Notes: generated by a model not told the origin, from the sequence alone. A stretch of 64,000 nt of DNA from a virus (IMGVR_UViG_3300044641_007991:1-64000), one strand, 5' to 3'. Shown: positions 5,026-38,846, counted from the first letter of the stretch. A program made the numbers and translations.

Positions 5026-5035
5026 GTATAATTCC

Positions 5036-17524: not shown

Positions 17525-17571
17525 ATAATGTGTAGATCGCGATACTACTAATATCCATCTACTCTAAACAT
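17520..17571 (+). promoter_or_regulatory. HEG 5' module 4: late promoter and covarying hairpin
   Basis: TATAAATA (17520-17527), which supplies the stop codon of the cyclase N-piece. Outer stem GTAGAT/ATCTAC (17532-17537/17557-17562), CGC, inner stem GATA/TATC (17541-17544/17552-17555), one C, then TCTAAACAT (17563-17571). Confidence 0.87.
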
Positions 17572-18799: not shown

Positions 18800-20431
<1,632 letters not shown>

Positions 20432-21284: not shown

Positions 21285-21730
21285 TGTAAGAAAACGGTTT
21301 ATTCTGTTTCGAGGAAAACCGCAAAAACCCAACTATAATTTTAAGCTGCTAGAGCAGTAGAATTATAGAAAGCGTCGTTTTTAGCTTCGCCATTTACTTA
21401 TTTTATGCTGATTACGTCAGTCATCTCTCGATTCTCCAGTGTTCTTTGATCTCAACGTCGAATCTGTTCACCCCCATCAGAAACACACTTAAACTGGTCC
21501 GGCAGAATTTTTTCATTCCAGTTCGTTTATGTGACCGTCGTCACTACTTAGCTGCGGCAAAAGTATGTTTCTGGTGGAGGTGGGGGAATAATGCTATCCC
21601 CGTCCGCCAAAACTATTATAACACCTTCAACGAATACTTTAAAATCACACTGCATAAGGACATAACGGACTCAAACCGAGTTCTTTGATACTATCTTACC
21701 TTATCGAACCTGAACACCTAGTGTGATTTT
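21285..21730 (-). ncRNA. ssrA: Circularly permuted (two-piece) tmRNA
   Basis: On the minus strand the acceptor piece comes first and ends CACCTCCACCA (21582-21572); about 96 bases later the coding piece begins GGGGGTGAACAGATTCGACG (21475 onward), with the near-invariant ATTCGACG. GGGGGTG pairs with CACCTCC to make the acceptor stem (one G-U), and the intervening bases extend this helix (GAAACA with TGTTTC). A tag frame ends in ALAA and stop. A perfect 11-bp stem (21730-21720/21651-21641) closes the outer acceptor domain. The two-piece order is known from alphaproteobacteria, cyanobacteria and some betaproteobacteria. The 5' limit of the acceptor piece and the 3' limit of the coding piece are approximate. 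Confidence 0.88.
21341..21391 (-). other. tmRNA tag-peptide frame
   Basis: Reading from GGC at 21391 gives GEAKNDAFYNSTALAA then TAA; resuming at GCT would give AKNDAFYNSTALAA. The -4 base before GGC is A, as needed in E. coli tmRNA, which favours the longer tag. The ALAA end is the classic ClpXP/ClpAP degradation signal. The tag is nested inside a stem (CTATAATT/AATTATAG). Confidence 0.85.
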
Positions 21731-23486: not shown

Positions 23487-23935
23487 CGTTGCCACTCCAC
23501 AATTGTATAATCAACCATACCTTCTAAATTATTTTTAATAATATCTCGAATAATGTTCCAGTCACCACCTGCTAAACCAGCACCAATTAATGGTAACCCA
23601 ATTTTTTTACCTTTAAAATCCGTAGCAATTAATCGCATAGAATCATTGATTGCTTGATAATTTTGCTTTAGGTCATTATATCCAGGCATGTATTGAGTGT
23701 ACGCATTTACAATTGTTAAACCCTTATCCATATAGGTATGTGCGCTATATGAACCCAATTTTGTTATATCACCCTGTTCTGTTGATTTGTCTGACAAATA
23801 CGCTTCTGGATATCTATTCCTAATTTGTAGAGCAATCCCTGCGCCCATAGCGCAAAAACAATTACAACCATGAACGATAACATCGAACTCGCCAGCATCA
23901 AATAAATCTAATAAATCACCTTTAATAATTTTCAT
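23483..23935 (-). CDS. Macrodomain protein (ADP-ribose phosphate phosphatase-like)
   Basis: 150 residues, a whole macrodomain. MKIIKGDLLDLFDAGEFDVIVHGCNC has the ADP-ribose pocket; CAMGAGIALQI and GLPLIGAGLAGGDW are the two glycine-rich loops. The closest known type is the Poa1p/ADP-ribose-1''-phosphate phosphatase group. Its substrate arises during 2'-phosphate removal in tRNA repair, which fits the RNA ligases nearby; ADP-ribose produced from NAD is the alternative. It overlaps genes on both sides by 4 bases. Confidence 0.88.
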   Translation of the reverse strand: MKIIKGDLLDLFDAGEFDVIVHGCNCFCAMGAGIALQIRNRYPEAYLSDKSTEQGDITKLGSYSAHTYMDKGLTIVNAYTQYMPGYNDLKQNYQAINDSMRLIATDFKGKKIGLPLIGAGLAGGDWNIIRDIIKNNLEGMVDYTIVEWQR

Positions 23936-24882
23936 TCTATATCCTCTAAAGTATTAGCAACAGTTTTATCATCCCTAACGCGAGAAAAAATTGGTAGGAA
24001 TAAAGATTTAATATCTGAATCTCGGTTTGAAATAATACAATTATATTTTACCTCGATAATTTTACCAACATAAGATTCTGGGTTATCTCGCTCACCTCGT
24101 TTATGTTTAAATCCAGAACCAACATTTACTCGCAATCGACCACAAGCAGTTTCACAAATTAATGATCCCAACATACCTTCAAATTGAGTTCCTGGAGTAC
24201 CATATTCAAAACCAACAACCAATAGATCCATAGGGTCTTCTGCTTTTAATTTTAATTGGTATTTAGATCGTTTGGCTTCCCATACACCATCCATTGCTTT
24301 AAGAATTCCGCCTTCTTCGCCTCGTTCTAGATTACGCTGATATTTTTGCATAACTTCTTCGCGAGAATTTACAATCTCGGATTCAACAATTTGTAATTTA
24401 GTTTGATTTTCTGGAACTGCTAGCCCAACAAATTTAAATCTTGTAGCATAACCAACTGAACAATATTCGTTTAAAAAATCATCATAAGGAATATAATCCC
24501 AGAGAACAACATACAACCCCTTAGCTTCTTCTGAGGTAATTGTTCCACGAACAGCTTTTGTTACATAACCATTAGATACTTTGCGTTCTGCTACTCGACC
24601 ATCAGGATAGCGCCACATTAATTCGCCATCTAGAATACATCTTTCATGTGTTGCAATTTCAATATCATCAAAACATGAGATATCTAGAATATTACCATTT
24701 CTGGTTGTAGCCGATACGAATTTTCCACCATCAAACTCTAGATTAATTCTAGAACTATCCATTTTACAATTATGGACCAGAATATTGTCAGCAAAAAAAT
24801 TATTAGTATTTTCGACCGTTATATCGTATAACAAATTATCACACTCTATCTCAACTACATTTTCTATTTTCATAGTTCTCAT
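23932..24882 (-). CDS. ATP-dependent DNA ligase C-part with C-terminal split intein (IntC)
   Basis: 316 residues. Residues 1-38 are an intein C-fragment: LYDITVENTNNFFADNILVHN is blocks F and G with the penultimate His and terminal Asn. Cys 39 is the +1 residue and Lys 40 in CKMDSSR is the nucleotidyl-transfer lysine of ligase motif I (usual KxDG; here KMDS). Then follow DGELMW (motif III), EGGILKAMDG (motif IV), and KLKAEDPMDLLVVGF (motif V), and an OB-fold end, as in T4 gp30. Trans-splicing with the 26049-26819 product would give a 431-residue ligase. Confidence 0.92.
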   Translation of the reverse strand: MRTMKIENVVEIECDNLLYDITVENTNNFFADNILVHNCKMDSSRINLEFDGGKFVSATTRNGNILDISCFDDIEIATHERCILDGELMWRYPDGRVAERKVSNGYVTKAVRGTITSEEAKGLYVVLWDYIPYDDFLNEYCSVGYATRFKFVGLAVPENQTKLQIVESEIVNSREEVMQKYQRNLERGEEGGILKAMDGVWEAKRSKYQLKLKAEDPMDLLVVGFEYGTPGTQFEGMLGSLICETACGRLRVNVGSGFKHKRGERDNPESYVGKIIEVKYNCIISNRDSDIKSLFLPIFSRVRDDKTVANTLEDIE

Positions 24883-24914
24883 AATAAATTTCCAATTTAA
24901 AGCTGTATATTGAT

Positions 24915-24990
24915 AATAAATAGTTGACCGTTTAAATGAATATTAAACGATGCTTATCGCGGAATAGCAGTTCCCATAAGCACTAATCAT
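24915..24990 (+). promoter_or_regulatory. HEG 5' module 5: late promoter and covarying hairpin
   Basis: AATAAATA (24915-24922), an extra hairpin CGTTTA/TAAACG (about 24929-24949), outer stem TGCTTAT/ATAAGCA (24951-24957/24976-24982), CGC, inner stem GGAA/TTCC (24961-24964/24971-24974), one C, then CTAATCAT in place of CTAAACAT. Confidence 0.83.
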
Positions 24991-25014
24991 CAACTATCAA
25001 ATATAGGAATCGAT

Positions 25015-26103
25015 ATGACCAGCAATAATATTTATACTATTACCGAACAACAACGATTAAATTTTAAACCGACTTATTTAATGATTAAACAACATTCAAT
25101 AACAGGTAAAAAATATTTTTGTAAAACTGTAACATCCAACCCTTTAAAATATTCTGGGTCAGGGGATTATTGGTTAAAACATATAAAAAAGCACGGAGTT
25201 CAATTTGTCGAGACAATATGGTATAAATTGTATACTGATATAGACGAATTAGTAAACTATGCTTTACAATTTTCTATCGAAAATGATATTATTAAATCTA
25301 AACTCTGGGCGAATAAAATGTTAGAAAACGGGTTATCTGGCGGGTTATCTAAAGATTTGTTATCAGAACAGACCATATTAAATATGGTTAATGCTCAATT
25401 AAATAGATCCCCAGAAGCTAAATTTATCTCTAAAACAAAATATAAAAATACTATACAGAATAGATCAGAGTTTAAAAAATTAGAACTATCTAATAAAATT
25501 AGAAAAACAAAATTAGCTATGACTTCTGAACAAAAAGCAGAACAAAAACGTAAAGAATACGAAACAAAAGCAAATAGATCCCCTGAACAAAAAGCAGAAC
25601 AAAAACGTAAACAAAGCGAGTCTTATTTAAAGACATTTAATTCTAAATCTGATGACAGTAAACGCGAACAATATACAAAAAGAGCAAAAACAATGTCACT
25701 AAAATCTGAAGAAGAATTAGCTTCTATCTACGCAAAAATAAGTCGCCCAGGTAAATTAAATCCTATGTACGGTAAACCTCGCCCAGATTTAATTGAAAAT
25801 AATAAAAATCCTATAAAACGACAAAAACAAATACAAACGCGCAAAAAATTAGATCTTGAGAGAAAATTACGTAGATTTAAAATTGAAACTGAGATTAAAT
25901 TTTACGAGAAAATATTAGAATTATCTTCAATCCACTCAACGTACACTAAATCCGGAAAAATAAATTTTAATACATTAGCTAAATATTTTCCTGAGTATAA
26001 TGGTTCAACTCAAGCAACAACAGCAGCTCTGCGTAGATTTTATGAATATTACACATCAACTAAAATAATATCGGATGACGATAATTCATCTACTCTAATA
26101 TAG
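25015..26103 (+). CDS. GIY-YIG-type homing endonuclease inside the ligase intein (cassette 5)
   Basis: 362 residues. MTSNNIYTITEQQ, GIY-YIG-like core FKPTYLMIKQHSITGKKYFCKT, then a very basic middle with duplicated EQKAEQKRK (about 170-205) and NPMYGKPRP (NUMOD3-like, about 255). It lies between the two ligase halves but on the opposite strand. Its last 55 bases overlap the 3' end of the IntN coding region tail to tail. It probably cuts intein-free ligase alleles; this is inferred from position. Confidence 0.82.
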   Translation: MTSNNIYTITEQQRLNFKPTYLMIKQHSITGKKYFCKTVTSNPLKYSGSGDYWLKHIKKHGVQFVETIWYKLYTDIDELVNYALQFSIENDIIKSKLWANKMLENGLSGGLSKDLLSEQTILNMVNAQLNRSPEAKFISKTKYKNTIQNRSEFKKLELSNKIRKTKLAMTSEQKAEQKRKEYETKANRSPEQKAEQKRKQSESYLKTFNSKSDDSKREQYTKRAKTMSLKSEEELASIYAKISRPGKLNPMYGKPRPDLIENNKNPIKRQKQIQTRKKLDLERKLRRFKIETEIKFYEKILELSSIHSTYTKSGKINFNTLAKYFPEYNGSTQATTAALRRFYEYYTSTKIISDDDNSSTLI

Positions 26104-26819
26104 GCGTCTTTATTGATACACCAAATTAAATGATTTCCAGTTAAAGGTTTGGTGTATTCTCCGTTTTCCATTTTAAGTTTATACCATTTATGGTGTATAG
26201 TTTGTTTATTAACAAATTTATCTAATACCGTATTATATTCAACTTTATTTGTATGGTGATTAAATGATTTAACTTTAATATCTTTAATATCAGATTCAAT
26301 TAATTGTTTTATCGTCATATTACCCTCTGTTGTATTAAGAACCCAATCTTCCGATAAACACTGAAAAATAGCTGGATATTTAATATTCTTTTCGGTTTTC
26401 TCATTGAATTTGCCGCACAATAAAACTGGATATTCTGGAATTAAATCTTTCCAAATTTTATTTACAGTTTTTGCGCTAACGCCACATTTTAAATCGCGTT
26501 CGATAATACGATATAAAACTTCTTGATCATCTACTGGCAATTTACCTAGTATCATAGATACATATTCGATAGCTTCATTACCAGTAAGCTCTCTATTACA
26601 AATATTAACTTTAATGCTGGATAAAGCGCCAATCAAATCTACGGTAATACCGTTATTTGGAGAAACTGGAGGACGTTTTTTAATCCAATATTTAATTCTT
26701 GGGTTATAAGCAAATAAAAATACAGCTCGCACAACCGGATTATCAACATATGATTTTAATAGAGCGATTTTGTCGTTAGTGCCTGATGTTGCTGCTAGTT
26801 GATTCAATAAATTTAACAT
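26049..26819 (-). CDS. ATP-dependent DNA ligase N-part with N-terminal split intein (IntN)
   Basis: 256 residues. Residues 1-153 are the N-terminal domain of a T4 gp30-type ligase (LNQLAATSG, RDLKCGVSAKTVNKIW, LIPEYPVLLCGKFNEK). The intein begins at Cys 154: CLSEDWVLNTTEGNMTIKQL is block A, and TGNHLIWCINKDAYIRVDEL is block B. It ends IILVDV at a stop. The split point is thus about 100 residues into the intein, where endonuclease domains normally sit. It has a strong sigma70-type promoter. Confidence 0.92.
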   Translation of the reverse strand: MLNLLNQLAATSGTNDKIALLKSYVDNPVVRAVFLFAYNPRIKYWIKKRPPVSPNNGITVDLIGALSSIKVNICNRELTGNEAIEYVSMILGKLPVDDQEVLYRIIERDLKCGVSAKTVNKIWKDLIPEYPVLLCGKFNEKTEKNIKYPAIFQCLSEDWVLNTTEGNMTIKQLIESDIKDIKVKSFNHHTNKVEYNTVLDKFVNKQTIHHKWYKLKMENGEYTKPLTGNHLIWCINKDAYIRVDELSSSDIILVDV

Positions 26820-28214: not shown

Positions 28215-28551
28215 TTTCTTTTTCCTTTAATAATTTCTTTAAATGTTTAATTTCACGTTTTAAATTACCCATTTCATACACACTCCAACCAAGTTCTTCT
28301 GCTTGTTTACGAATATTAGCAAGGTAATCGTGATCGGATCTGCTTAGATCTTCTGTGGGATACAACATCAATTTGTTATTATCCCAATCAAAACCTAGAT
28401 GCACAGATTCAACGTCAATACACGGAGTTCCGCCAATTGCTGATGGAGTTTTAATTGGAATACAAACTCGAATATCTTCAGGGTTTCTGTTTCTTGATTG
28501 TTGCGATTCTACAATATAATTTATGCGTTGTTGAAATTCAAATAGATTCAT
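28207..28551 (-). CDS. Conserved phage protein of unknown function
   Basis: 114 residues. NLFEFQQRINYIVESQQ then RVCIPIKTPSAIGGTPCIDVESVHLGFDWDNNKLMLYP is a recurrent phage pattern. The C-terminal third is a charged helix (NLKREIKHLKKLLKEKE). It overlaps thioredoxin by 8 bases. Cytoplasmic. Confidence 0.75.
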   Translation of the reverse strand: MNLFEFQQRINYIVESQQSRNRNPEDIRVCIPIKTPSAIGGTPCIDVESVHLGFDWDNNKLMLYPTEDLSRSDHDYLANIRKQAEELGWSVYEMGNLKREIKHLKKLLKEKENE

Positions 28552-28798
28552 GTTCTAGGTGTGTGATAAATGCATCAATTTCTGAACGTAATAATTTTAA
28601 TTTATCTATGAAAGCTGGCATATCTAAATTAGCATCATAGTGAATTCGAGATTTTCCATGACAATCTGCTAACTCTAAAAATGTATATCGTTCAGCTGGT
28701 TTACCTCTATTAGAGACAACTCCATCATGGCAACATACACTTCCTGTATAATGAGAATCCTCAGAATTTAACCACGTTCTTTTGTTATAAGTTTCCAT
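28538..28798 (-). CDS. Unknown protein with Cys/His cluster
   Basis: 86 residues from METYNKRTWLN. The phrase GSVCCHDG...LELADCHGKSRIHYD could bind a metal but is not a known finger. It overlaps the next start by 14 bases (CATGAATCTATTTGA). No strong ribosome site. Confidence 0.7.
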   Translation of the reverse strand: METYNKRTWLNSEDSHYTGSVCCHDGVVSNRGKPAERYTFLELADCHGKSRIHYDANLDMPAFIDKLKLLRSEIDAFITHLEHESI

Positions 28799-28832
28799 AA
28801 ACAATAATTTAATGTTAAAACTACTATTTATT

Positions 28833-28937
28833 TTATTGTAATACAAAATGATATGCGATTGAAACAATAACAATTAATGCTGCGGCTAAAATAGAGCCAA
28901 TAAACAGTCCATCGATAAATCGTTTTATTTTATCCAT
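28833..28937 (-). CDS. Very small membrane protein
   Basis: 34 residues, MDKIKRFIDGLFIGSILAAA then LIVIVSIAYHFVLQ. One membrane helix fills residues 9-31. Its start overlaps the stop of the gene at 28930. Confidence 0.6.
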   Translation of the reverse strand: MDKIKRFIDGLFIGSILAAALIVIVSIAYHFVLQ

Positions 28938-29106
28938 TTACAGGTTTTGAACCAAAAAGTTGATGTAACTTATATTTAGCATCAAGCCCTTCTTGTTGAG
29001 ATTTAACGGGGATATAAATCTCACAACCATTACCGATTTGCACATATTGTACACGTTCTGCTTGTGAAAATAAACAAGGATTAATACCAATATCTTCTAA
29101 TTTCAT
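28930..29106 (-). CDS. Small unknown protein
   Basis: 58 residues, MKLEDIGINPCLFSQAERVQ ... KYKLHQLFGSKPVNG. The ribosome site CTGGAGACTCT is excellent. Cytoplasmic, no family recognised. Confidence 0.7.
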   Translation of the reverse strand: MKLEDIGINPCLFSQAERVQYVQIGNGCEIYIPVKSQQEGLDAKYKLHQLFGSKPVNG

Positions 29107-29129
29107 AGAGTCTCCAGGATTTGTTGTAA

Positions 29130-29198
29130 TTAGTTACCAAAAGTGTTTACATATTCACCCGTTTTAGTTACAACTTTCCAACCTCCAAATGTAGATAT
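29130..29198 (-). pseudogene. Fragment matching the RNA ligase N-terminus
   Basis: An open frame without a start reads ISTFGGWKVVTKTGEYV and stops soon after. The intact RNA ligase (34214-35278) has ICTIGGWKVVTKLGEF. The DNA shares an exact 18-base run (TGGAAAGTTGTAACTAAA). The fragment overlaps the 3' end of the gene at 29168 in another frame. A shared protein motif of another family is the alternative. Confidence 0.4.
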
Positions 29199-29350
29199 TC
29201 AATAAGTGATTCTCGACTTTCTTTGTATTGTTTATACAATTCTTGAAATTTTGGATCAGGAATCTTTGAATAATCAGCATAATAATTCAAAGCATTATCA
29301 AATCCTTCGCACTCAATATCTTCAATTAATTCATCAATCGTTGTTCTCAT
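29168..29350 (-). CDS. Small acidic protein
   Basis: 60 residues, MRTTIDELIEDIECEGFDNA..., acidic and helical, starting after GAGGATTAAAT. The tail EYLHLEVGKL is encoded over the RNA-ligase-like fragment, so its end may be secondary. Confidence 0.7.
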   Translation of the reverse strand: MRTTIDELIEDIECEGFDNALNYYADYSKIPDPKFQELYKQYKESRESLIEYLHLEVGKL

Positions 29351-29352
29351 AT

Positions 29353-29811
29353 TTAATCCTCAAATTCAATTCTAAAACAAGTTTTATCTTTAAACGTACG
29401 CCAAGCAGTAATAACGAAACTTGGTTTTTTCTCGACTTTTTTGTAGTTATTTTTTACAAATTCATCGTAAAATTTTTGACGTTTAAGTTCTCTGCGGTCA
29501 GCAAGCCAATCAGAAACTAAAAACCAAACATAAATCAAAAGTAACCCAACATCAAGAACTAAACCAACTGCAACTTCTTTTGGTGGCTCAAAAAATTGAT
29601 ATTGTAGCCCTACAGCTAAATATAGCAACGGTGCTACTACAAGAATAAATAGACACATAGTGATCATTGCTAACATTAGCAGCAAAATACTACCGCTAAT
29701 AATAACATCCCAGAAATAACCACAGAAATTATCCGATATATGCCATTCATCTTTTACGGCTCGAACTAATTGATAATGCCAACTATTTTTGTTAAATTTT
29801 AGAGTATTCAT
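29353..29811 (-). CDS. Membrane protein of unknown function
   Basis: 152 residues with two or three membrane helices at about 35-58 (ILLLMLAMITMCLFILVVAP), 60-70 and 82-100 (VGLVLDVGLLLIYVWFLVS), then a basic cytoplasmic tail ending FKDKTCFRIEFED. Starts one base after the stop of the upstream gene. Function unknown. Confidence 0.75.
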   Translation of the reverse strand: MNTLKFNKNSWHYQLVRAVKDEWHISDNFCGYFWDVIISGSILLLMLAMITMCLFILVVAPLLYLAVGLQYQFFEPPKEVAVGLVLDVGLLLIYVWFLVSDWLADRRELKRQKFYDEFVKNNYKKVEKKPSFVITAWRTFKDKTCFRIEFED

Positions 29812-29812
29812 G

Positions 29813-30049
29813 TTAATTAATGCAAATTGCGTTAGCGATTAACTCTTCACCGTAGTCTTCTTGATGCTCTTCAAAATACGAATCAGCAGTAAACTCTCCA
29901 CGATCAAAAAATCCTAGAGTTGGAGTATAATGAACTTTTCGATATCCATTACCCTCATCATCTGCAGCATACACAACATCTAAGTTACCAAGACCTGGAC
30001 GTTCGTATAACATTGTATTTAATGTGTCAACGTATTCTTTAAATGTCAT
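29813..30049 (-). CDS. Conserved small phage protein
   Basis: 78 residues. TFKEYVDTLNTMLYERPGLGNLDVVYAADDEGNGYRKV resembles a widespread family in T4-like phages with unknown role. Acidic C-terminal half. Part of the operon with NadV. Confidence 0.75.
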   Translation of the reverse strand: MTFKEYVDTLNTMLYERPGLGNLDVVYAADDEGNGYRKVHYTPTLGFFDRGEFTADSYFEEHQEDYGEELIANAICIN

Positions 30050-30051
30050 AA

Positions 30052-30291
30052 TTAACCTCGTGCTCTAGGAGCTGATTTTTCTGTGATAGTAATATAAGAT
30101 TTTTGTTTAATCTCATCAATTGCTAAGGGTAAAGATTCGCGCATTTCTGCCACCTGAGCAGCAGAAATTTCGTCTAACAGATTTAATTCAACATGAAATC
30201 CATGATTAAATAAAAAATCATGCAATAAAATAGCAACTCGAGATTTTCCAGTTCCAGAAGTTCCTTCAATTGTAATATTTAAATTATTCAT
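30052..30291 (-). CDS. Small P-loop NTPase-like protein
   Basis: 79 residues with a Walker A motif GTSGTGKS (about 10-17) in MNNLNITIEG...RVAILLHDFL, the first strand-helix unit of a P-loop fold. No Walker B partner is obvious and the protein is far too short for a full NTPase. Related short P-loop proteins occur in many phages. Starts two bases after NadV. Confidence 0.7.
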   Translation of the reverse strand: MNNLNITIEGTSGTGKSRVAILLHDFLFNHGFHVELNLLDEISAAQVAEMRESLPLAIDEIKQKSYITITEKSAPRARG

Positions 30292-30293
30292 AA

Positions 30294-31997
30294 TTAAACC
30301 TTGTCAGTAATAGCTCTAATTTCCGCCAATGTTGTTGTTTTAACTAATTGACTATCTTTAAATACAGTTTCTAAACAACCGTGGCGTTCTTGATCAACAG
30401 ATACTTGATCAACTAATTTATAAACACCATCTGTTTGGGTAACCATTAATAACCCTTTAGCCGATTTCTTAATACCATTATCAGTTTTTGGATCTTTAAA
30501 GATTTCTACACCTGCACCATTAATCTCAGCATAGGTAGATTTCATGGCCATACCGTGAGTATCTCTGGTAACATATTGGAAACTGAATGAACCAATACCC
30601 AGCACAACATTACTTGATGCAAAACCTTTTTGTTCTAATCTACGGAAAATTTCCTCAGCACGTTTGTATGTGATAGAATCACCGTAAATAGCACCAATAT
30701 GAGTATCTAATACTTTGTAACCGTTTTCAGTTAAAGTGCCACCGAAAATATCCCATAAACATTCAATTAAACCTTTTTGTTCAGGCGAAATCTCAACTTC
30801 TTCAAATTCAAGCACCCTACTGTTATCAACATAATAGTATTGTTTATCATAACGATTCCACTCAATTTCTACTTTAGCTTTATAATATTTGTCGCCAGCT
30901 TTATAAATTCTGGTTACAATATCTTCACCGCATTCGCCATGAGGAGTATCATTACGAATTTCGGATTCTATATCGTTTAACATATAGTTTTTAATCGAAT
31001 CCAAACAGTCAATAGCAACATATTTTGCCGGCACAACTGGAATATCAATACCACACAGAATTTCAACTGGATCACCAGAATCTGGACGAATAATAACACG
31101 ACCATCTCTAGCCATAATATCAGATTTTAATCGCACCAAATAATCGGTAATAACTTGCCAGAAATCCCATGTATCACTAACAATAGATACCATACCGCTT
31201 GGATAAATTTCGGTAATTAATCGTTTATAAGTATCAAATTCATCTTCTTTAGTACCGCTGCACATAACACTGTGTTCTGTAGCAGGAACCGAAACGCCAA
31301 CAATTTCTGTATCGCTATCAGCAAAATAATAATCCTCAGCCAAATCAATTGCTGGGATATTATCTGTACCATAAGCGCCAGCTGCTAATACAGCAAAACC
31401 AGACGATGCAGCTGCGTGGCGACCTGCCATACCGCGAAAACCAAAATCATGGAACTGATACCGAACAAACTCTTTATCGGCTCCAGTAAGCTCTGCATAA
31501 CGCAAACCCAATTTCTTGTAAGCCATATAAGTTGTGGCTGATGTAATTGGTTGCCATAATTCAGCTGATAATACCGATTCTAACATATTAGTTACCCAGA
31601 AAAATTCTGGTTTAGTATTAACCACAGTTAACATTGGAACGCCATATGGAACCATAGAACCTTCTGGTAAGGCTTTAATCTCAATTGGTAAATAACCCAA
31701 TTTATGCAGCGCACGAATATGATCTACATTAACCTTATAACCAACGATATTTGAAACGCGACGTTGATATGAATTAACCACGCGATCAATTGATCGAGTA
31801 AAGAATGAATAATCCCAATCTTCAATCAAGTAATCTAAGATAAAATGTTGTAGACCAACAAAACAAATACCATCGGTTGGTACGTTTTGATTTTTACCTG
31901 AACGAGCGGTAAAGTTAGAATAAATTTTAGTTGTACCAGGAGCATACTGATCTTTATGGTTTACTTTATAGCTGTCTTTTTGGTGTAATGCGCTCAT
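30294..31997 (-). CDS. nadV: Nicotinamide phosphoribosyltransferase
   Basis: 567 residues. Family phrases: SALHQKDSYKVNHKDQY at the N-terminus, YSNFTARSGK, RYQFHDFGFRGMAGRHAAA (active site), VSVPATEHSVMCSG, SIVSDTWDFW and IIRPDSGDP. It joins nicotinamide and PRPP to give NMN, the first step of NAD salvage. PRPP synthetase is encoded just upstream, giving both substrate supply and use. Longer than human NAMPT (491) because of an insertion at about 340-420. Own sigma70-type promoter. Confidence 0.96.
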   Translation of the reverse strand: MSALHQKDSYKVNHKDQYAPGTTKIYSNFTARSGKNQNVPTDGICFVGLQHFILDYLIEDWDYSFFTRSIDRVVNSYQRRVSNIVGYKVNVDHIRALHKLGYLPIEIKALPEGSMVPYGVPMLTVVNTKPEFFWVTNMLESVLSAELWQPITSATTYMAYKKLGLRYAELTGADKEFVRYQFHDFGFRGMAGRHAAASSGFAVLAAGAYGTDNIPAIDLAEDYYFADSDTEIVGVSVPATEHSVMCSGTKEDEFDTYKRLITEIYPSGMVSIVSDTWDFWQVITDYLVRLKSDIMARDGRVIIRPDSGDPVEILCGIDIPVVPAKYVAIDCLDSIKNYMLNDIESEIRNDTPHGECGEDIVTRIYKAGDKYYKAKVEIEWNRYDKQYYYVDNSRVLEFEEVEISPEQKGLIECLWDIFGGTLTENGYKVLDTHIGAIYGDSITYKRAEEIFRRLEQKGFASSNVVLGIGSFSFQYVTRDTHGMAMKSTYAEINGAGVEIFKDPKTDNGIKKSAKGLLMVTQTDGVYKLVDQVSVDQERHGCLETVFKDSQLVKTTTLAEIRAITDKV

Positions 31998-32030
31998 TTC
32001 AAAATTCCTATCAAGTTAAGGTATAGAGTT

Positions 32031-32066
32031 ATTGTACTCTAATTCAAGTCAAATGTCAAGCACTTT
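32031..32066 (-). promoter_or_regulatory. Sigma70-type early promoter
   Basis: -35 TTGACA (32059-32054), 17 bp, -10 TACAAT (32036-32031); drives nadV. Confidence 0.92.
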
Positions 32067-32305
32067 TTACAGATGCTTTAAAAATTGCATTTCTTGTTCT
32101 GTTGGGAAAAATTTATGGATAATTTCTACTCTAGGATCTGTTTGTTCAAAGGAATCTGTGGTGTAGATAGCATCAACACCACCTTCAAATAATGGATCTA
32201 ATCCACGCGAGAAAATACCATGAGTAACAAATAATCCAATTTTTCCTGCACCACGGTCTATTAACACTTTTGCCAATTCAGTGAAAGTAGCTCCGCCATC
32301 AGAAA
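32067..32305 (-). pseudogene. Old 3' end of the PRPP synthetase gene
   Basis: From SDGGATFTELAKVL the frame reads about 78 residues to a stop and aligns with the last quarter of PRPP synthetase: 43 of 66 residues are identical to the end of the intact gene (33369-34211), including RGAGKIGLF and IYTTDSFEQTDPRV. It is cut off from the rest by cassette 6. It could be translated from the ATG at 32276, but lacks the catalytic core. It is best read as the displaced original gene end. Confidence 0.85.
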
Positions 32306-32314
32306 AGTAAATTT

Positions 32315-32368
32315 TATAAATATATTATGCTAGTCGCGGTGCTACCAACACCCACTAGCTCTAAACAT
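32315..32368 (+). promoter_or_regulatory. HEG 5' module 6: late promoter and covarying hairpin
   Basis: TATAAATA (32315-32322), outer stem GCTAGT/ACTAGC (32329-32334/32354-32359), CGC, inner stem GGTG/CACC (32338-32341/32349-32352), one C, then TCTAAACAT (32360-32368). Confidence 0.88.
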
Positions 32369-32391
32369 TTTCATTCAGATAAGGATTACCT

Positions 32392-33372
32392 ATGTTCAGC
32401 ACAGATATTTATACCATACTATCATCAAAACCTCATAATCAACATTATTTAAAACGATACGTTAAATTCATAGAATATTGTAACAATATTAATGCGCATT
32501 ATACTGGTTATGTAGAATATCATCACATATTACCAAAAGCTAAGACGCTATTCCCTGAATATAAAAATTTTAAACAAAACCCCTGGAATAAAATAAAACT
32601 AACTCCAAGGCAACACTTTATAGCTCATTGGATGTTGTGGAAAATATTCGGCGGTTTTATGGCTTACGCATTTTCTATAATGCGTAGAAAATCTAAAGTT
32701 CAATCAGAAAGATATTTTCGATTAAATAGCAAATCGTATGGAGAATTGAAAATAGCAGTTAGCAAATCTCAATCAACCAGAATCATATCAAAAAAAACGA
32801 TAGAGAAAATGAAAAAATCTCAAAAAAATAAACCTAAAATTCGATGCCCTCATTGCGATAAAATCGGGGATGAATCTAACATGAGAAGGTGGCATTTCGA
32901 TAATTGTAAAGTTTTTACTGATAAATCTGTACACGAAGTAAAACAAAAATCTGATATTGTAACTTGCCCTCATTGTGGAAAAACCGGAAAAGAACAAGGT
33001 ATGTTGGCTAACCATTTCTCAAATTGTAGTGTTATTAGAGGAGATTACCGAAAAGTAAAAGATAAGATAACATGTCCACATTGTAAAAAAGAAGGCGCGA
33101 ACACATATGGGTTTAAGGTTTATCATTTCGATAATTGTAAAATTTTAACGGGAAAGATTATACGCGCAGTAGAATATGATTTATCTATAGTTAAGTGTCC
33201 GCATTGCGATAAAGAAGGGACAATGCACGGAATGAAATCAAGTCATTTCGAACACTGTCCTACACTCAAACCAGAATTACCGAAAATACAATGCCCGCAC
33301 TGCAAAAAAGAAGGTAATAACAACGGCTATTTTAAATCTCATCATTTTGATAAGTGTAAACAAAAAATTTAA
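32392..33372 (+). CDS. HNH homing endonuclease with five zinc fingers (cassette 6)
   Basis: 326 residues. After MFSTDIYT comes an HNH nuclease: EYHHILPKAK (about 43-52), then NKIKLTPRQHFIAHWMLWK (about 66-84). The C-terminal 180 residues hold five tandem CPHC...H-F-x-x-C motifs (about 145, 185, 220, 260 and 300), a zinc-finger array likely to read the target DNA. This is the only HNH member, yet it has the same 5' module and start region as the GIY-YIG cassettes. Its stop overlaps the stop of the intact PRPP synthetase gene by 4 bases. Confidence 0.88.
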   Translation: MFSTDIYTILSSKPHNQHYLKRYVKFIEYCNNINAHYTGYVEYHHILPKAKTLFPEYKNFKQNPWNKIKLTPRQHFIAHWMLWKIFGGFMAYAFSIMRRKSKVQSERYFRLNSKSYGELKIAVSKSQSTRIISKKTIEKMKKSQKNKPKIRCPHCDKIGDESNMRRWHFDNCKVFTDKSVHEVKQKSDIVTCPHCGKTGKEQGMLANHFSNCSVIRGDYRKVKDKITCPHCKKEGANTYGFKVYHFDNCKILTGKIIRAVEYDLSIVKCPHCDKEGTMHGMKSSHFEHCPTLKPELPKIQCPHCKKEGNNNGYFKSHHFDKCKQKI

Positions 33373-34211
33373 TTAAAAAAGTTATAAATTACCTGAACTC
33401 TTGGATCTGTTTGTTCAAACGAATCTGTGGTGTAGATGTGATCAATATTATCGTTAAATAATACATCTACACCATAATCAAAAATTCCATGGGTAATAAA
33501 CAACCCAATTTTACCTGCACCCCTAGCTTTTAATTCCCTAGCCAATAATCGGAATGTCATACCGCCTGAACAAATATCATCGACGATCAAACAATCTGCG
33601 CCATCCAAGTTATCCGATAACAATTCTGTTTTAGTAATGTTACCAGTTGCAGGATCTCGTACTTTAAGAGCCTGCAGAACATCAATTTTTGATGATAAAT
33701 TATACCCTCGAGCAAAATCAACTGCTTTTTTACTGGCACCTGCATCCGGAGCAACGATATAACTGTAATTAGCTAATCCAAGAATTCCTAATCTAGAAGC
33801 CAATGGGAATGCAAAAGTAGATTGAGCTCGTTCTACAACATTATCTAATAATGCAGTAGCAACTGTGCTATGAGCATCTGTTACATGTACTCGAGAATAA
33901 CCCTGGGAATTAATTAAATTTGCAAAAATTTTAAGTGAAAATGAATCGCCTAGATTACAAACTCTATCCTGACGAGCATATGGAATATAAGGTAACACCA
34001 ATTCAATTGTTTTAATTCCCAGTCGTTTTAATGCATCAGTTACTAACAACAACCGCATTAATTCGCTAGAACTATCAATTCTTGCTAGAATTTCTACTGA
34101 GGAACTAACAATAGCTGGCGAGGGTAATACAACATTAACATGTTCTTCTCCACCAGAGAACGTATGAAATTTAATTTCTACAAAATTTTCTTGCTGTTTT
34201 ACAATAATCAT
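33369..34211 (-). CDS. prs: Ribose-phosphate pyrophosphokinase (PRPP synthetase)
   Basis: 280 residues. Conserved phrases: LPYIPYARQDRVCN, VHVTDAHSTVATALL, VAPDAGASKKAVDFA and the PRPP loop DCLIVDDICSGGMTF (about 205-220). It makes PRPP from ribose 5-phosphate and ATP. It forms a supply line with NadV. Its last quarter appears to have arrived with cassette 6: it differs from the older end still present at 32067-32305 and reads CSGG where the older copy and most relatives read SDGG. Confidence 0.94.
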   Translation of the reverse strand: MIIVKQQENFVEIKFHTFSGGEEHVNVVLPSPAIVSSSVEILARIDSSSELMRLLLVTDALKRLGIKTIELVLPYIPYARQDRVCNLGDSFSLKIFANLINSQGYSRVHVTDAHSTVATALLDNVVERAQSTFAFPLASRLGILGLANYSYIVAPDAGASKKAVDFARGYNLSSKIDVLQALKVRDPATGNITKTELLSDNLDGADCLIVDDICSGGMTFRLLARELKARGAGKIGLFITHGIFDYGVDVLFNDNIDHIYTTDSFEQTDPRVQVIYNFFN

Positions 34212-34213
34212 TA

Positions 34214-35278
34214 TTAATCCTCGAATTTCATTAAAAATTTATTAGAAATTGCTTTAAAGTGGACGCGTGTATCGGTAATACATTTAAATACCAAACCTTC
34301 TCGTTCAGTTTTAACATTTAATTCACTTTTGCTTTCAGCTAATTGTAATAGACTATCAATAGTTTGATTTTCAAGAGTCATTGTACCTAGAACTGGAACG
34401 TGTTTCAAACCTAATTTCTCACACAATTCTAATCGTTCTGCTGATGATAGATATTCACCCTTATCAATATCATAAATGGTAAACACATAGAAATCAATAT
34501 CATTTAATTTATATTTGTTACCTTGAATTCCCACGCCACACAATTCACCTTGAATTGCAATATTTCTATCTAGAGCAGTTAATTTTTCTTCAAGAGTATA
34601 TTTTCTAGCAGCACCCCAAAAAGAATTACCTTCAGTTTCTTTTAATTGTAGGTTACGAGAACAAACGCCAAATTCAGCAATAAAATCATCTGCGTCAGTC
34701 ATAGCATTATTTCTAAAGAATACAGTCATAGATGAGCCATCTAATTTTTCAGAAATTTCCCATTGATCATCCGATTGTGACCATTTACCTAAATTTTTTG
34801 ATAAATTTTGAACACGTTCTTCGTCAGTTTTTGGAATAAAACTTGGGAAATTACCTTTAGCTTGACCAGCTAATTGTGCTGGCAATGGTCGTTCGTATTT
34901 CAAGATACCCAATAATTCAGTAACGTCGTCATCTTCATTCCAATCGGATGATGTTGCTTCGCCAACATAGTTTGACATCACAACACCAAATGGTAACAAC
35001 AAACCTTGGCTACAAGTTCCGCGCAATTTAATTGTACGCAATCGTTCACCTTTAACACCTTCAAACTCTCTTGGTTCTTTACCATTGGATAAGAATGGAG
35101 CTAACTCGTGCGGGATCCATGAATCAATAGAAAAATATACTGCTAATTGTCCAGTATTAAATTCACCCAATTTAGTTACAACTTTCCACCCACCAATAGT
35201 ACAAATATCCAATGCATCAGCATTAGGATGTTTCTCAACATTATCAATTCTAGCAATCCACGCCATTTTTCTACTCAT
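34214..35278 (-). CDS. RNA ligase, DRB0094/Rnl5 type
   Basis: 354 residues from the ATG at 35278, with GAGGTG upstream. An N-terminal tRNA-binding-like OB domain (1-110: MAWIARIDNVEKHPNADALD, LRGTCSQGLLLPFG) precedes the adenylation domain. Motif I is EKLDGSSMTVF (Lys about 182), motif III NIAIQGELCG, motif IV EGLVFKC and motif V HFKAISNKFLMK. It seals nicked RNA or RNA/DNA ends. Its 5' end seems to have arrived with cassette 7; an older 5' end remains at 36758-36901. Confidence 0.92.
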   Translation of the reverse strand: MSRKMAWIARIDNVEKHPNADALDICTIGGWKVVTKLGEFNTGQLAVYFSIDSWIPHELAPFLSNGKEPREFEGVKGERLRTIKLRGTCSQGLLLPFGVVMSNYVGEATSSDWNEDDDVTELLGILKYERPLPAQLAGQAKGNFPSFIPKTDEERVQNLSKNLGKWSQSDDQWEISEKLDGSSMTVFFRNNAMTDADDFIAEFGVCSRNLQLKETEGNSFWGAARKYTLEEKLTALDRNIAIQGELCGVGIQGNKYKLNDIDFYVFTIYDIDKGEYLSSAERLELCEKLGLKHVPVLGTMTLENQTIDSLLQLAESKSELNVKTEREGLVFKCITDTRVHFKAISNKFLMKFED

Positions 35279-35304
35279 AATACAACACCTCAAGTTTCAA
35301 TTTA

Positions 35305-35390
35305 TATAAATAAAGTATAGATTAAAAATGTCTATACAACACAAAAAAAGCCAATCGCGATACTGGTAATATCCATTGGCACTAATACTA
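35305..35390 (+). promoter_or_regulatory. HEG 5' module 7: late promoter and covarying hairpin
   Basis: TATAAATA (35305-35312), an extra hairpin GTATAG/CTATAC (about 35315-35339), outer stem GCCAAT/ATTGGC (35350-35355/35375-35380), CGC, inner stem GATA/TATC (35359-35362/35370-35373), one C, then ACTAATACT. Confidence 0.83.
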
Positions 35391-35405
35391 ATCAGGAGTA
35401 TCAGC

Positions 35406-36626
35406 ATGAATATTTATTACGTTTACGTTTATCGCCATCCAACAACAAATATACCATTTTATGTCGGCATGGGTAAAAAAGATAGATATCTTTCGCATTT
35501 AAAAGAAGCAATTAAGCATCCAACCCCAGTCCGCAGTCAAGGAAAATTAAATACTATCAGAAAAATTATTCGAGAAGGTTCACAACCAGTTATACAGTTA
35601 ATAGACACAAAATTATCAAAAGAGGATGCTATTGAACTAGAAATATTTTTGATAGAATTGATAGGAAGAAAAGATTTAAAAAACGGGTCACTTACCAATC
35701 TAACGTCTGGCGGAGACGGGTATTCTGGGTGGTCTGACTTCCACCGAGAAGAACAATCTAATAGAATGAAAACTACAATAGCAGTAAAAAATCCAGTTAC
35801 CGGAGAAAAATTTCGTGTTTCTGATAATGATCCTAGATGGTTGTCCGGAGAACTTGTTGGACAAAACCTTGGAGAATGTAATAGTAACATAAATGGTAAA
35901 TTAGACGGTTATATACAAGCAAAAGATAAAAACGGTAATATTTTTAGAATAAAACCGACCGATCCTAGATGGTTGTCCGGAGAACTTGTTGGGATTAATA
36001 AAAATAGACCTGCACATGAAAACACTAAAATAGCTGCAAGTAAAACACATAAAGGTGTACCAAAATCAAAAGAACATAATAAAAAAGTGTCTGAATCAAC
36101 TAAAGGTTCAATATGGATCCATAACTTTGATACAGGAAAAACATCCAGACTAACGAAAATTAATCCAAATATACCAAACGGGTTTGTAATTGTTTGTGGG
36201 CCACATAAATTATTAACTTTAGAACAACGAGAAGAAGAACGTATAACAGTTAAAAATAACAAAAAACAAATACGATCAGAAACAGCTTTGTTAAGAAAGC
36301 AAAATAATTCTCTCGCCCAAAAACAATTTAGAAAAGATAATCCATTTTTCGGGTTAACAGAAAAACAAATCCAATTTTCAATTGAAATAGTAGAATTATT
36401 TTCTACAAAACCTACAGTCCCATTAATAGGTAGAAGAGGAAACGGAATACGTCAACTCTCGTATATTAGAGCATTTTCCTTATTTGTATCAAAACAATAT
36501 AATGTTACACTACATACAATACATTCTATTGTAAATGGAAAAAAGCCTAATTTAATTCACGAAATTATTAAAATTCGCCCAGATTTATCAGATATTTGTC
36601 AAGAAATATTGCAAAATTGCCACTAG
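35406..36626 (+). CDS. GIY-YIG homing endonuclease with PRWLSGELVG repeats (cassette 7)
   Basis: 406 residues from the ATG at 35406 (CAGGAG upstream). A clear GIY-YIG core: IYYVYVYRHPTTNIPFYVGMG, then YLSHLKEA and ELEIFLIELIGR with the catalytic Glu, and NLTSGGDGYSG. The middle has two copies of DPRWLSGELVG (about 140 and 195) and a NUMOD3-like SKTHKGVPKSKEHNKK. The tail is a basic helical domain. It lies head to head with the intact RNA ligase gene, separating it from the ligase's original start. Confidence 0.9.
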   Translation: MNIYYVYVYRHPTTNIPFYVGMGKKDRYLSHLKEAIKHPTPVRSQGKLNTIRKIIREGSQPVIQLIDTKLSKEDAIELEIFLIELIGRKDLKNGSLTNLTSGGDGYSGWSDFHREEQSNRMKTTIAVKNPVTGEKFRVSDNDPRWLSGELVGQNLGECNSNINGKLDGYIQAKDKNGNIFRIKPTDPRWLSGELVGINKNRPAHENTKIAASKTHKGVPKSKEHNKKVSESTKGSIWIHNFDTGKTSRLTKINPNIPNGFVIVCGPHKLLTLEQREEERITVKNNKKQIRSETALLRKQNNSLAQKQFRKDNPFFGLTEKQIQFSIEIVELFSTKPTVPLIGRRGNGIRQLSYIRAFSLFVSKQYNVTLHTIHSIVNGKKPNLIHEIIKIRPDLSDICQEILQNCH

Positions 36627-36667
36627 AATAAACAATAATTTTAGTTACCAATTTTGTAAGAATATAC

Positions 36668-36720
36668 GTTCTGTGTTAATTAATATTAACTGTATTGAAA
36701 TTTTATTTTTAACACAGAAC
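36668..36720. repeat. Inverted repeat downstream of cassette 7
   Basis: GTTCTGTGTT (36668-36677) and AACACAGAAC (36711-36720), a perfect 10-bp pair with a T-rich interior. It is probably a terminator-like hairpin ending the endonuclease transcript. AATAAATA follows at 36723-36730. Confidence 0.6.
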
Positions 36721-36757
36721 ATAATAAATAATATCTATATTTCCATTATGAACTCAA

Positions 36758-36901
36758 TCAATAGACGACTAAATCACCAACGCTATATTTTTCTTTTTGG
36801 TCAACAATCCACCAACCATCTACTCTATACGCACAAATTAAATCTGCACCTTCGATCAATTTAATTTCTTGAATTCGTTTAATACTCGCTAATTTTCTCA
36901 C
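36758..36901 (-). pseudogene. Old 5' end of the RNA ligase gene
   Basis: 47 codons from GTG (AGAGGTAGATT upstream) read RKLASIKRIQEIKLIEGADL ... GDLVVY and stop. They align without gaps to residues 2-47 of the intact ligase, 15 of 46 identical, including RI, AD, GW and VY. It still has the sigma70-type promoter. Cassette 7 separates it from the rest of the gene, so it is a displaced original start. Confidence 0.82.
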
Positions 36902-36931
36902 AATCTACCTCTCATTGTTTAGTATAGAGTT

Positions 36932-36968
36932 ATTGTAACCTATGCTACTCTAAAAGTCAAGCACTTTA
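36932..36968 (-). promoter_or_regulatory. Sigma70-type early promoter
   Basis: -35 TTGACT (36960-36955), 17 bp, -10 TACAAT (36937-36932). It now drives only the ligase remnant and antisense of cassette 7, unless transcription continues through to the ligase. Confidence 0.9.
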
Positions 36969-36976
36969 TAAAAAAG

Positions 36977-38233
36977 TTAAACATAAGCATGCTCCGCCCA
37001 ATCTCTAATAATAGTCAACCGTTCTTGTTCAGGAATTTCCAAAAATTGGTCCTTAGTATAATTTTTCTGTAAATATTCGCATAAACTATAGAACTCTTCC
37101 TCAAAATGCTGTTTGTAATTTCTATCAAAAATTAAATCTAATTTTTTGGTTCTAGCAATAAATTTTGATGTCAAATAGTATGGGGTTTTTAATTTCAATA
37201 CAGTATCAGATTCTTGATCATACACAACATAGCCTTCTCGTTTATAAGTTTTAGCTTGTTCAAGTAAGTCTGAGAAACGAATATATTCCCATTTTGGGCG
37301 AAACACACCAAAATCTAAGGCAATTGCATCTAAAAACACTTCAGATTGTTTTGCGGAACCTAATACTTTCTCACGAGCACCAATAAGATAAACACCCTCA
37401 TATTCCGGAATAATATGCGGATCATTTGGATGTACAATCTCAAAACAAAAAGATAAATTTTGATACGATTCTAATACAAGTTTCATACGGTCTAAAGGCA
37501 ATATTTCTTTTGCCATATCAACATGTTCGCTGGTTAGAGAACCAGTTGTTGAAACTAAAATATCACCGTTATACCATGTAACAGCCGCTAAAAATCCATT
37601 AATTTTATCTACTGCTATTACTTGATGGTCTAATGGAATATCTGTACCATTCTCGTGTCTGTTAAATATTTTGGTAAATGGATATTGTACGACATTACCA
37701 TCTGCGTCTCTAATTAAACCCCGAGCATCAACTAATTCTGGATGCATATTCCATAAATTTTGGTAAAATACAGATCTCTTGTATTTGTGTACAAACAATC
37801 CGTTTTGTTCTTTAATCTGAACAAAATCTGTATACTCAACATCTGGCGCTAATTTAATTTCAAATCGATCAGTCATTTTCTTAATAGTTTCCGCTGGAAC
37901 ATTATGTACTGATTTAGAACCATGACGATTTTCTACGATTAAAGTTGTCACACGATAACCATATGTTTTAGCTAAATCAAAATAAGGTTGCATTTCCCGC
38001 TCTGTAGTAAAAGTATTATGTACAGCAACATTTTCTTCATACTCCATCCATTTCTCGGTTTGGGCTTGACACCATTCATGCGCTTGTTTGACATTCTCTG
38101 GTTTCCACGCATAATTACCTTTTTCATCAGTATGATAATCATCTGCTGCAACGCAAATATAATTGTCTAATGATTGTAACAGAGTAGTTTTACCTGCACC
38201 TGGGATTCCCCTAATAAGAATAAGGTTTTTCAT
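36977..38233 (-). CDS. Polynucleotide kinase - RNA ligase fusion
   Basis: 418 residues from the ATG at 38233. The N-terminal domain (1-140) is a P-loop kinase: MKNLILIRGIPGAGKTTLLQ (Walker A GIPGAGKT), VAADDYH and EENVAVHNTFTTEREM as in T4 Pnk-type kinases. The C-terminal domain (about 150-418) is an RNA ligase of the T4 Rnl1 type: VIAVDKINGFLAAVTWYNG (nucleotidyl lysine in KINGF), CFEIVHPNDPH, EGYVVYDQESDTVLKLKTP (motifs IV-V). It would phosphorylate 5' ends and seal RNA, repairing tRNAs cut by host nucleases. No phosphatase domain is visible between the two. Confidence 0.88.
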   Translation of the reverse strand: MKNLILIRGIPGAGKTTLLQSLDNYICVAADDYHTDEKGNYAWKPENVKQAHEWCQAQTEKWMEYEENVAVHNTFTTEREMQPYFDLAKTYGYRVTTLIVENRHGSKSVHNVPAETIKKMTDRFEIKLAPDVEYTDFVQIKEQNGLFVHKYKRSVFYQNLWNMHPELVDARGLIRDADGNVVQYPFTKIFNRHENGTDIPLDHQVIAVDKINGFLAAVTWYNGDILVSTTGSLTSEHVDMAKEILPLDRMKLVLESYQNLSFCFEIVHPNDPHIIPEYEGVYLIGAREKVLGSAKQSEVFLDAIALDFGVFRPKWEYIRFSDLLEQAKTYKREGYVVYDQESDTVLKLKTPYYLTSKFIARTKKLDLIFDRNYKQHFEEEFYSLCEYLQKNYTKDQFLEIPEQERLTIIRDWAEHAYV

Positions 38234-38234
38234 T

Positions 38235-38438
38235 TTACTCACCTGACCAACTAGAAATAAAAGAATCTCGATTTAAATATCTTGGAGAAAGGACAGAATT
38301 TGATACATTAAATTCTGTACCATTATCCATCCAGATAGAATATTTTTCTGCATCACCCCAAGGTCTGGTTACATGCGAGACTTTATCTAAGTCAATAGTT
38401 GCTGGAGTATAGTCCGGCATTTCGTATAATCTAGGCAT
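38235..38438 (-). CDS. Small unknown protein
   Basis: 67 residues, MPRLYEMPDYTPATIDLDKVSHVTRPWGD..., with a WMDNGTEF strand. One base before the kinase-ligase start; same operon. No family recognised. Confidence 0.7.
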   Translation of the reverse strand: MPRLYEMPDYTPATIDLDKVSHVTRPWGDAEKYSIWMDNGTEFNVSNSVLSPRYLNRDSFISSWSGE

Positions 38439-38457
38439 AATATAATTCTCAAGTTGT

Positions 38458-38661
38458 TTAGCGTTTCATTCCAAGGTAATTCTCATACGAGAGTTCCCGA
38501 TCATTTTCATCATAAGTTTTGCGAATCCAAAATCCAGTGGAATCTTCGTGATACACAACATTACCACGATTATCGTATTCTTTGCGCCACCAAAAACCTA
38601 ATTCATTTCCATAAAATATTAGATGACCATTTGAATCGTATTCTATTTTGTATGTGTCCAT
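38458..38661 (-). CDS. Small protein with YD-type repeats
   Basis: 67 residues with three copies of a unit like GFWWRKEYDNRGNVVYHEDS, the pattern of YD/Rhs-type repeats in miniature. The charged tryptophan-rich repeats suggest a small beta sheet. Function unknown. Confidence 0.7.
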   Translation of the reverse strand: MDTYKIEYDSNGHLIFYGNELGFWWRKEYDNRGNVVYHEDSTGFWIRKTYDENDRELSYENYLGMKR

Positions 38662-38663
38662 GT

Positions 38664-38846
38664 TTATACTTTTAAAGTTTTGAAAGTTCTGCCACGAGTA
38701 TCAAATTGTAATGGAGTTTTAAATATATGAGCACGCTCTTCACCATATTTGATATAACCTAGTGTTTTAAATTTATCGTCTGTGACCAGATATGTGTGAC
38801 GTTGAGTTTCAGGAAAAGATTTGGTTGTTTCTTGTAATACTATCAT
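38664..38846 (-). CDS. Small unknown protein
   Basis: 60 residues, MIVLQETTKSFPETQRHTYL..., beta-rich. Overlaps the end of the kinase-like gene by 38 bases; the GGATC upstream is a weak ribosome site. Confidence 0.6.
   Translation of the reverse strand: MIVLQETTKSFPETQRHTYLVTDDKFKTLGYIKYGEERAHIFKTPLQFDTRGRTFKTLKV

Follow-up and report, generated by a model that had tools for sequence, protein, structure and literature searches.

Apparent replacement of the 5' end of a phage RNA ligase gene alongside a free-standing GIY-YIG homing endonuclease gene

The ligase locus and its comparison with a cassette-free relative

The stretch analysed here, referred to as the window, comprises bases 1-64000 (64,000 nucleotides) of a 74,280-bp IMG/VR virus record from an uncultured phage. 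Three further contigs were used for comparison. Contig IMGVR_UViG_3300042337_000733 (L003) is cassette-free at the ligase 5' end and served as the reference for the ligase comparisons, and L004, a cassette-free relative at the PRPP synthetase gene, was the reference for that gene. L002 is a second contig of the window's own virus; it is identical to the window over 28217-34776 and ends within the ligase at 34776. The features of the ligase locus are as follows.

34214..34943, minus strand: body of the resident ligase with catalytic domain PF09414, related to L003 except for a patch at 34259-34408
34925..34945: right breakpoint, at about codon 112-118 in the OB/nucleotidyltransferase linker, marked by a step in identity to L003
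34944..35278, minus strand: replacement 5' part, a probably foreign OB-fold domain with its own ribosome-binding site GAGGTG, 72% identity to L003
35299..35306, minus strand: TATAAATT, one mismatch from the late octamer TATAAATA, the only promoter-like element between hairpin and ligase
35305..35312, plus strand: TATAAATA, candidate T4-type late promoter octamer of the endonuclease gene, by sequence match
35350..35380, plus strand: leader hairpin (motif stem-UCGCG...CCA-stem), followed on the minus strand by seven T (35349-35343) and there terminator-like; score of 42.3 bits (E 3.6e-8) under model R1, a model whose building set includes this sequence
35406..36626, plus strand: putative free-standing GIY-YIG homing endonuclease gene, 406 aa (PF22945, PHROG_314)
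36627..36753: spacer of 127 bp from the endonuclease stop to the remnant, with a 12-bp inverted repeat (36668-36679 / 36709-36720)
36753..36754: left junction, where homology to L003 ends in codon 48, with none beyond
36754..36901, minus strand: ligase 5' remnant, with an ORF of 47 codons at 36758-36901; matches to PHROG_968 and PF21189; corresponds to L003 3550-3697
36932..36960, minus strand: predicted early sigma70-type promoter TTGACT-N17-TACAAT of the ancestral ligase, now ahead of the remnant only, with the same hexamers in L003

The gene at 34214-35278 (minus strand) encodes a full-length RNA ligase (PHROG_968, E 8e-98), which phmmer aligned over residues 3-354 with the Naegleria RNA ligase of PDB entry 5cot (E 8e-75), an enzyme type known as Rnl5. 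With homology over the full length, the Rnl5-type architecture of an N-terminal OB domain (PF21189, residues 6-96) and a nucleotidyltransferase domain (PF09414, catalytic, residues 172-343) is present, as is the catalytic KxDG motif (K178-L-D-G), whose K178 and G181 are invariant in 25 phage ligases. The gene upstream of the remnant (36977-38242, minus strand) resembles a fused polynucleotide kinase and T4 Rnl1-like RNA ligase; counting its Rnl1-like part and the ligase at 34214-35278 (minus strand), the phage would have two RNA ligases.

Between the remnant and the intact ligase, and head to head with the latter, lies a gene that we judge to be a free-standing GIY-YIG homing endonuclease gene: its product matched PF22945 (LEM-3_GIY-YIG, E 9e-12) and PHROG_314 (homing endonuclease, E 4.5e-14), and it is a gene of its own, with its own leader and start, outside any intron or intein. 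No Rfam match to a group I intron was found within the window. The start codon is the ATG at 35406 and not the TTG of the ORF list. Between the endonuclease stop and the remnant, a perfect 12-bp inverted repeat, GTTCTGTGTTAA / TTAACACAGAAC, is contained in 36668-36720.

An earlier note on this DNA had proposed that the intact ligase carries a replacement 5' end and that the old start survives on the far side of the endonuclease gene. The alignment on which it drew, of ligase residues 2-47 with the ORF at 36758-36901, is correct (ungapped, 15 of 46 residues identical), and the similarity of the two N-termini is not due to chance. Profile matches add support: taken alone, the remnant matched PHROG_968 'RNA ligase' (model positions 7-53, E 9.7e-10), Pfam PF21189 (OB-fold, positions 1-44, E 3.1e-10) and the solved structure of the Naegleria RNA ligase (chain positions 4-50, E 1e-3). 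The comparison with cassette-free relatives that had been recommended could be made with L003, which carries the old start and not the start at 35278. The remnant DNA equals L003 3550-3697 except for the start codon and the last few bases at the junction; within the ORF, the single DNA difference is the first base of the start codon, GTG in the window and ATG in L003, and apart from the initiation codon the encoded protein is the same as the 5' end of the L003 gene. In L003, these 47 codons continue uninterrupted into the OB domain. Because this uninterrupted 5' end opens with the same 47 codons, the remnant is recognized as the ancestral 5' end of the resident ligase, and since it shows almost no decay, a recent insertion is suggested. 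The early sigma70-type promoter that the remnant had been said to retain was likewise located, at 36960-36932 on the minus strand, with both hexamers as in L003 and a few differing bases in the spacer. Throughout the remnant, the promoter and the polynucleotide kinase/ligase gene, the window and L003 share 95-97% DNA identity, with 97% over 36759-38846.

The replacement itself was borne out by a sharp identity step within the intact ligase. Compared with L003, the segment 34944-35278 is 72% identical over the aligned bases, with 85 gap columns, whereas identity reaches 96.2% over 34812-34943 and 99.1% over 34580-34811; from about 34,925-34,945 on, the sequence is thus of the resident type and matches L003 at 96-99% over 360 bp. 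The window lacks about 220 bp of the old gene (L003 3699 to about 3921). In a tree of the ligase body, the window pairs with L003 (support 97), and in the N-terminal tree it groups with pf16 and BUCT-ZZ01 (support 96). As the latter tree, with 95 columns, has too few of them to reject a union of the window with L003 (AU p 0.58), the foreign origin of the N-terminus rests on the DNA identity step. By this step, the intact ligase is recognized as a chimera in which a foreign OB domain, codons 1 to about 113, is set on the resident body. No close donor was found among the 80 fetched IMG/VR loci that were compared for the N-terminus, the nearest of which is 71% identical.

Two further observations concern the same gene. 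A second patch diverged from L003 (34259-34408, 68.5% identity), close to the 3' end of the ligase and remote from the cassette, points to further recombination. In addition, a 16-residue match to the replacement-type ligase N-terminus (12/16 identical, E 0.018) occurs at 29151-29198 on the minus strand, where a small ORF ends, but in a different frame; L004 lacks the 240 bp around it, and L003 has them in slightly different form.

The leader hairpin and the transcription of the ligase

The hairpin in the leader of the endonuclease gene belongs to a motif, stem-UCGCG...CCA-stem followed by CUAAACAU, that stands upstream of homing endonuclease genes of several types and occurs in numerous uncultured phages. 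The following copies were located.

35350-35380, 32334-32368, 17537-17571, 13065-13098, 10004-10037 and 24957-24990, plus strand: leader hairpin copies in the window, by motif pattern
5874-5907, minus strand: leader hairpin copy in the window, by motif pattern
L097 6521-6563 and L003 8056-8097: leader hairpin copies outside the window

The pattern gave seven matches in the window and none in shuffled sequences, and across IMG/VR it was found in 99 stretches, 59 of them distinct; in 46 of these 59, an ORF starting M[SFPL]S follows the motif. Among 41 leader sequences, 98.9% of cells are paired, with a covariation score of 0.81 versus 0.21 in shuffles, and the changed pairs are all Watson-Crick on both sides except for four G-U cells in the innermost pair. 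Because the changed pairs are Watson-Crick on both sides, both strands of the hairpin may matter. Of 46 leaders, 26 have an A-rich run ahead of the stem (background 2%), which reads as a T-rich run on the antisense side. The motif had no Rfam match in the window. Variovorax phage V45v66, an isolated phage, was hit by the model with E 7e-7. We know of no description of this hairpin, and none was found in a paper search that covered part of the literature. It is conceivable, albeit speculative, that besides being selfish the cassette acts as a mobile regulatory unit. The conserved hairpin, common to endonuclease genes of several families and to numerous phages, would serve as a leader when read in sense and would terminate or process transcripts when read in antisense. 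By inserting head to head before replication genes, whether or not a new gene end came along, such cassettes would rewire the timing and amount of their expression; the ligase would then have been caught in the act, with domain and promoter both exchanged.

The idea that gene ends generally travel with cassettes of this leader class was rejected, as a flank-duplication test of about 45 cassettes, which misses the ligase pair as too diverged, gave few cases: the PRPP synthetase case described below (in the window and again in L002), a direct repeat of 54 bp in L104, and a few weak or short matches. In L104 (3300042328_001218), the repeat is perfect, consists of coding-like sequence and lies on both sides of the endonuclease cassette, possibly as another gene-end duplication.

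Early-type promoters (TTGAC-N16-18-TATAAT-like) in the window number 22 on the minus strand versus 1 on the plus strand, and the promoter before the remnant is among the 22. Genome-wide, the octamer TATAAATA shows no enrichment, with 15 copies against about 22 for permuted words. Eight copies stand close upstream of gene starts, six of endonuclease genes and two of other called genes, and this position suggests that these octamers are T4-type late promoters. Late promoters of this kind are found ahead of the capsid gene in the related phage pf16 (PMC5587285).

In L003, the early promoter lies directly upstream of the ligase. In the window, the path from the old promoter to the ligase on the minus strand crosses the antisense endonuclease gene and then the hairpin with seven T (35380-35343), a structure resembling an intrinsic terminator. 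According to the earlier note, ligase expression may have changed from early to late through the insertion, the old promoter being cut off and an outward late promoter of the cassette being used, a proposal that is compatible with the homing explanation given below. In its favour, the cassette is head to head with the ligase, the terminator-like hairpin stands just before the ligase, and no early-type promoter was found in the 60 nt between the hairpin with its T run and the start codon. TATAAATT lies 20 nt ahead of the ligase start codon, with a well-placed ribosome-binding site, and the octamer TATAAATA precedes several endonuclease genes and a few others, as in T4 and pf16 (PMC5587285). However, TATAAATT is one mismatch off and is in part a palindromic echo of the cassette's own TATAAATA. 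Moreover, among 24 related cassettes with a divergent neighbouring ORF, an outward TATAAAT occurs in one, namely the ligase cassette, and an outward late promoter as a general cassette feature was therefore rejected. Of 49 cassettes, 17 have an outward TATAAATA within the endonuclease start codons, which may simply follow from the codons for Ile-Tyr. The early timing of the ancestral promoter is itself deduced from its sequence, and about eleven neighbours of sister cassettes start 20-40 nt after the hairpin with no promoter visible by eye, which means that read-through must be possible. A switch to late expression is thus rather doubtful.

We rank above it the reading in which transcripts from the old early promoter still reach the ligase through the antisense endonuclease gene, such that the OB domain would have changed and the timing would not, although we would grant it slightly less than even odds. 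The old promoter is intact and on the same strand, and 19 of 46 related cassettes are flanked to the left and right by antisense ORFs, in an operon-like manner. In several of them, the hairpin and a T-rich run stand 20-40 nt directly before clamp loader, SbcD-like nuclease, topoisomerase or primase genes with no promoter visible in between. This arrangement makes read-through plausible; it would be the simplest reading for the promoterless sister neighbours and could serve the ligase too. Nevertheless, transcription would have to pass 1.6 kb of antisense sequence and a terminator-like hairpin with seven T. An apparent early promoter of their own after the hairpin was seen by eye in some other neighbours (L110, L116, L158, L164, L168, L177 and L180).

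The PRPP synthetase parallel and the origin of the chimera

The earlier note had called the ligase case a mirror image of that of the PRPP synthetase gene, and the comparison with L004 agrees with this view. The features concerned are listed below.

33369..34211, minus strand: PRPP synthetase gene with a replaced 3' end; homology to L004 ends near 33481
32392..33372, plus strand: second cassette, homing endonuclease gene with zinc-ribbon repeats (PHROG_655, E 3e-44)
32334-32368, plus strand: leader hairpin of the second cassette, TCGCG...CTAAACAT part, of the common leader motif
32067..32288, minus strand: remnant of the original PRPP synthetase 3' end, 89% identity to L004 708-996; PHROG_619 positions 222-271

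Here, the 3' end has been replaced, L004 is cassette-free, and the order is hybrid gene, endonuclease gene and, behind the latter, the native 3' remnant. At the PRPP synthetase gene, L003 differs from both, with a 3' end of a third type and a further endonuclease. The RNA ligase gene of L003 (3550-6118) is interrupted by an apparent split intein whose halves enclose an endonuclease gene (4408-5409); the interruption corresponds exactly to 34811/34812 in the window, which is uninterrupted there. The small ligase/PRPP synthetase locus has thus been struck repeatedly.

Elsewhere in the window, an ATP-dependent DNA ligase gene (23932-26819) is in two parts, apparently by a split intein (C-terminal part matching PF14890 Intein_splicing at E 4e-5, N-terminal part judged by eye), and a free-standing endonuclease gene (25015-26103, plus strand) lies between the halves. 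This phage also has a tmRNA-like sequence of the permuted/alphaproteobacterial type (21293-21683, minus strand), near which lies a GroEL gene (18800-20419, minus strand).

The locus presents a remnant, a chimeric gene with both breakpoints, a cassette-free relative and a parallel in the PRPP synthetase gene. As an explanation of the whole, we favour replacement of the ligase 5' end by homing with co-conversion, at a probability of roughly 0.8. The recipient, a phage very similar to L003 at this locus, would have carried an ordinary Rnl5-type RNA ligase (OB and nucleotidyltransferase domains) behind an early promoter, and the presumed donor would be a more distant phage with a GIY-YIG cassette head to head just before its ligase start. 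A break at some site in the recipient ligase gene, made by the endonuclease or by another cause, would have been repaired by copying the donor. In the ligase body, near codon 113-118, this repair would have used homologous recombination; at the opposite end, the donor cassette lacked a counterpart and would have been joined without homology inside codon 48, because donor and recipient shared the ligase body but not the upstream region. The product would be an intact, presumably functional chimeric ligase whose OB domain is foreign, followed by the cassette and by what is left of the old gene, a stump keeping the old promoter.

The placement of sister cassettes fits such a donor, since, among the 24 cassettes that share this leader and have a divergent neighbour, many stand 20-70 nt before the neighbour's start. 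Nine neighbours were scanned and are mostly replication or recombination genes, including those for clamp loader, exonuclease, SbcD-like nuclease, topoisomerase, helicase, primase and DNA ligase; cassettes 20-70 nt head to head before genes of these seven kinds were seen in L114, L117, L152, L160, L168, L173 and L180. Free-standing phage endonucleases are established to cleave hundreds of bases from their own gene and to yield long co-conversion tracts (PMC2988022).

Two other histories have to be weighed against homing with co-conversion. The exchange of the OB domain and the arrival of the endonuclease could have been separate events, given that phage ligases recombine anyway, as the divergence at 34259-34408 (68.5%), far from the cassette, illustrates. 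However, the foreign stretch extends from the breakpoint to the cassette, the old stump stands right behind the cassette, and the PRPP synthetase gene has the same arrangement with another endonuclease, which makes two unconnected events improbable. The chimera might also be an artefact of assembling two strains. When the window junctions were searched for in other contigs, only L003 was found and no second contig spanned either junction, nor did the bacterial and archaeal genomes searched yield anything; in addition, L002 ends inside the ligase. Against this, the left junction offers no homology able to mislead an assembler, L003-like flanks lie on both sides, and L002 agrees with the window throughout 28217-34776. 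We therefore consider an assembly artefact very improbable, and homing with co-conversion remains the preferred explanation.

Comparison with known systems

The T4-family free-standing endonucleases (segA-G, mobA-E, and Aeh1 mobE in nrdA; PMC2988022) resemble the present case in being GIY-YIG or HNH genes, and also in their late expression, leader hairpins, co-conversion of flanking markers and insertion near or in genes of nucleic-acid metabolism. In the known gene-interrupting cases of this family, however, two working parts result, whereas the phage ligase stays whole, with a new front end from the cassette side and a dead stump. Moreover, T4 endonuclease genes point in the same direction as their neighbours, with the exception of segD (PMC2988022). 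Homing endonuclease genes at exchange boundaries in ICP1 and other phages (PMC10448857) similarly mark recombination boundaries and cluster at essential genes, but that report describes large islands, whereas the boundary in the ligase lies within one gene at a domain border.

The ligase locus provides a clear phage example, with a cassette-free relative, in which a homing endonuclease has probably exchanged one domain of a neighbouring enzyme and detached the gene's own promoter while keeping the gene whole. It makes testable the question of what share free-standing endonucleases have in phage domain shuffling and promoter exchange, beyond gene splitting and marker exclusion, and the shared leader hairpin provides a sequence signature for finding such cassettes in many genomes.

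A close likeness is to the mobile ORFs of fungal mitochondria (Allomyces atp6; Glomus atp6/atp9/cox2/nad3; PMC3630166), in which an endonuclease ORF has inserted at one end of a gene and brought a foreign version of that end with it, the native end is left as a duplicate that is often unexpressed, and the native copy matches a close relative while the inserted copy does not. The same pattern is found in the window: the native end matches the insert-free relative and the inserted end does not, with L003 for the ligase and L004 for the PRPP synthetase, and the endonuclease gene lies between hybrid and native end in the order ligase, endonuclease, remnant. The PRPP synthetase, with its replaced 3' end, represents the Allomyces atp6-type arrangement in a phage. 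In contrast to the fungal cases, where 3' ends are replaced in organelles, the ligase has received a new 5' end, has been cut from its own promoter and faces an endonuclease gene in the opposite orientation. Replacements of gene N-termini in fungi are also alike in that a foreign N-terminal part displaces the native one through endonuclease-linked mobility, but the inserts are treated as introns, whereas the phage case involves a free-standing endonuclease gene on the opposite strand. Replacement of the ligase 5' end by a homing cassette is well supported, and the case represents a phage variant of the gene-end replacement described for fungal mitochondria (PMC3630166, PMC7315562).
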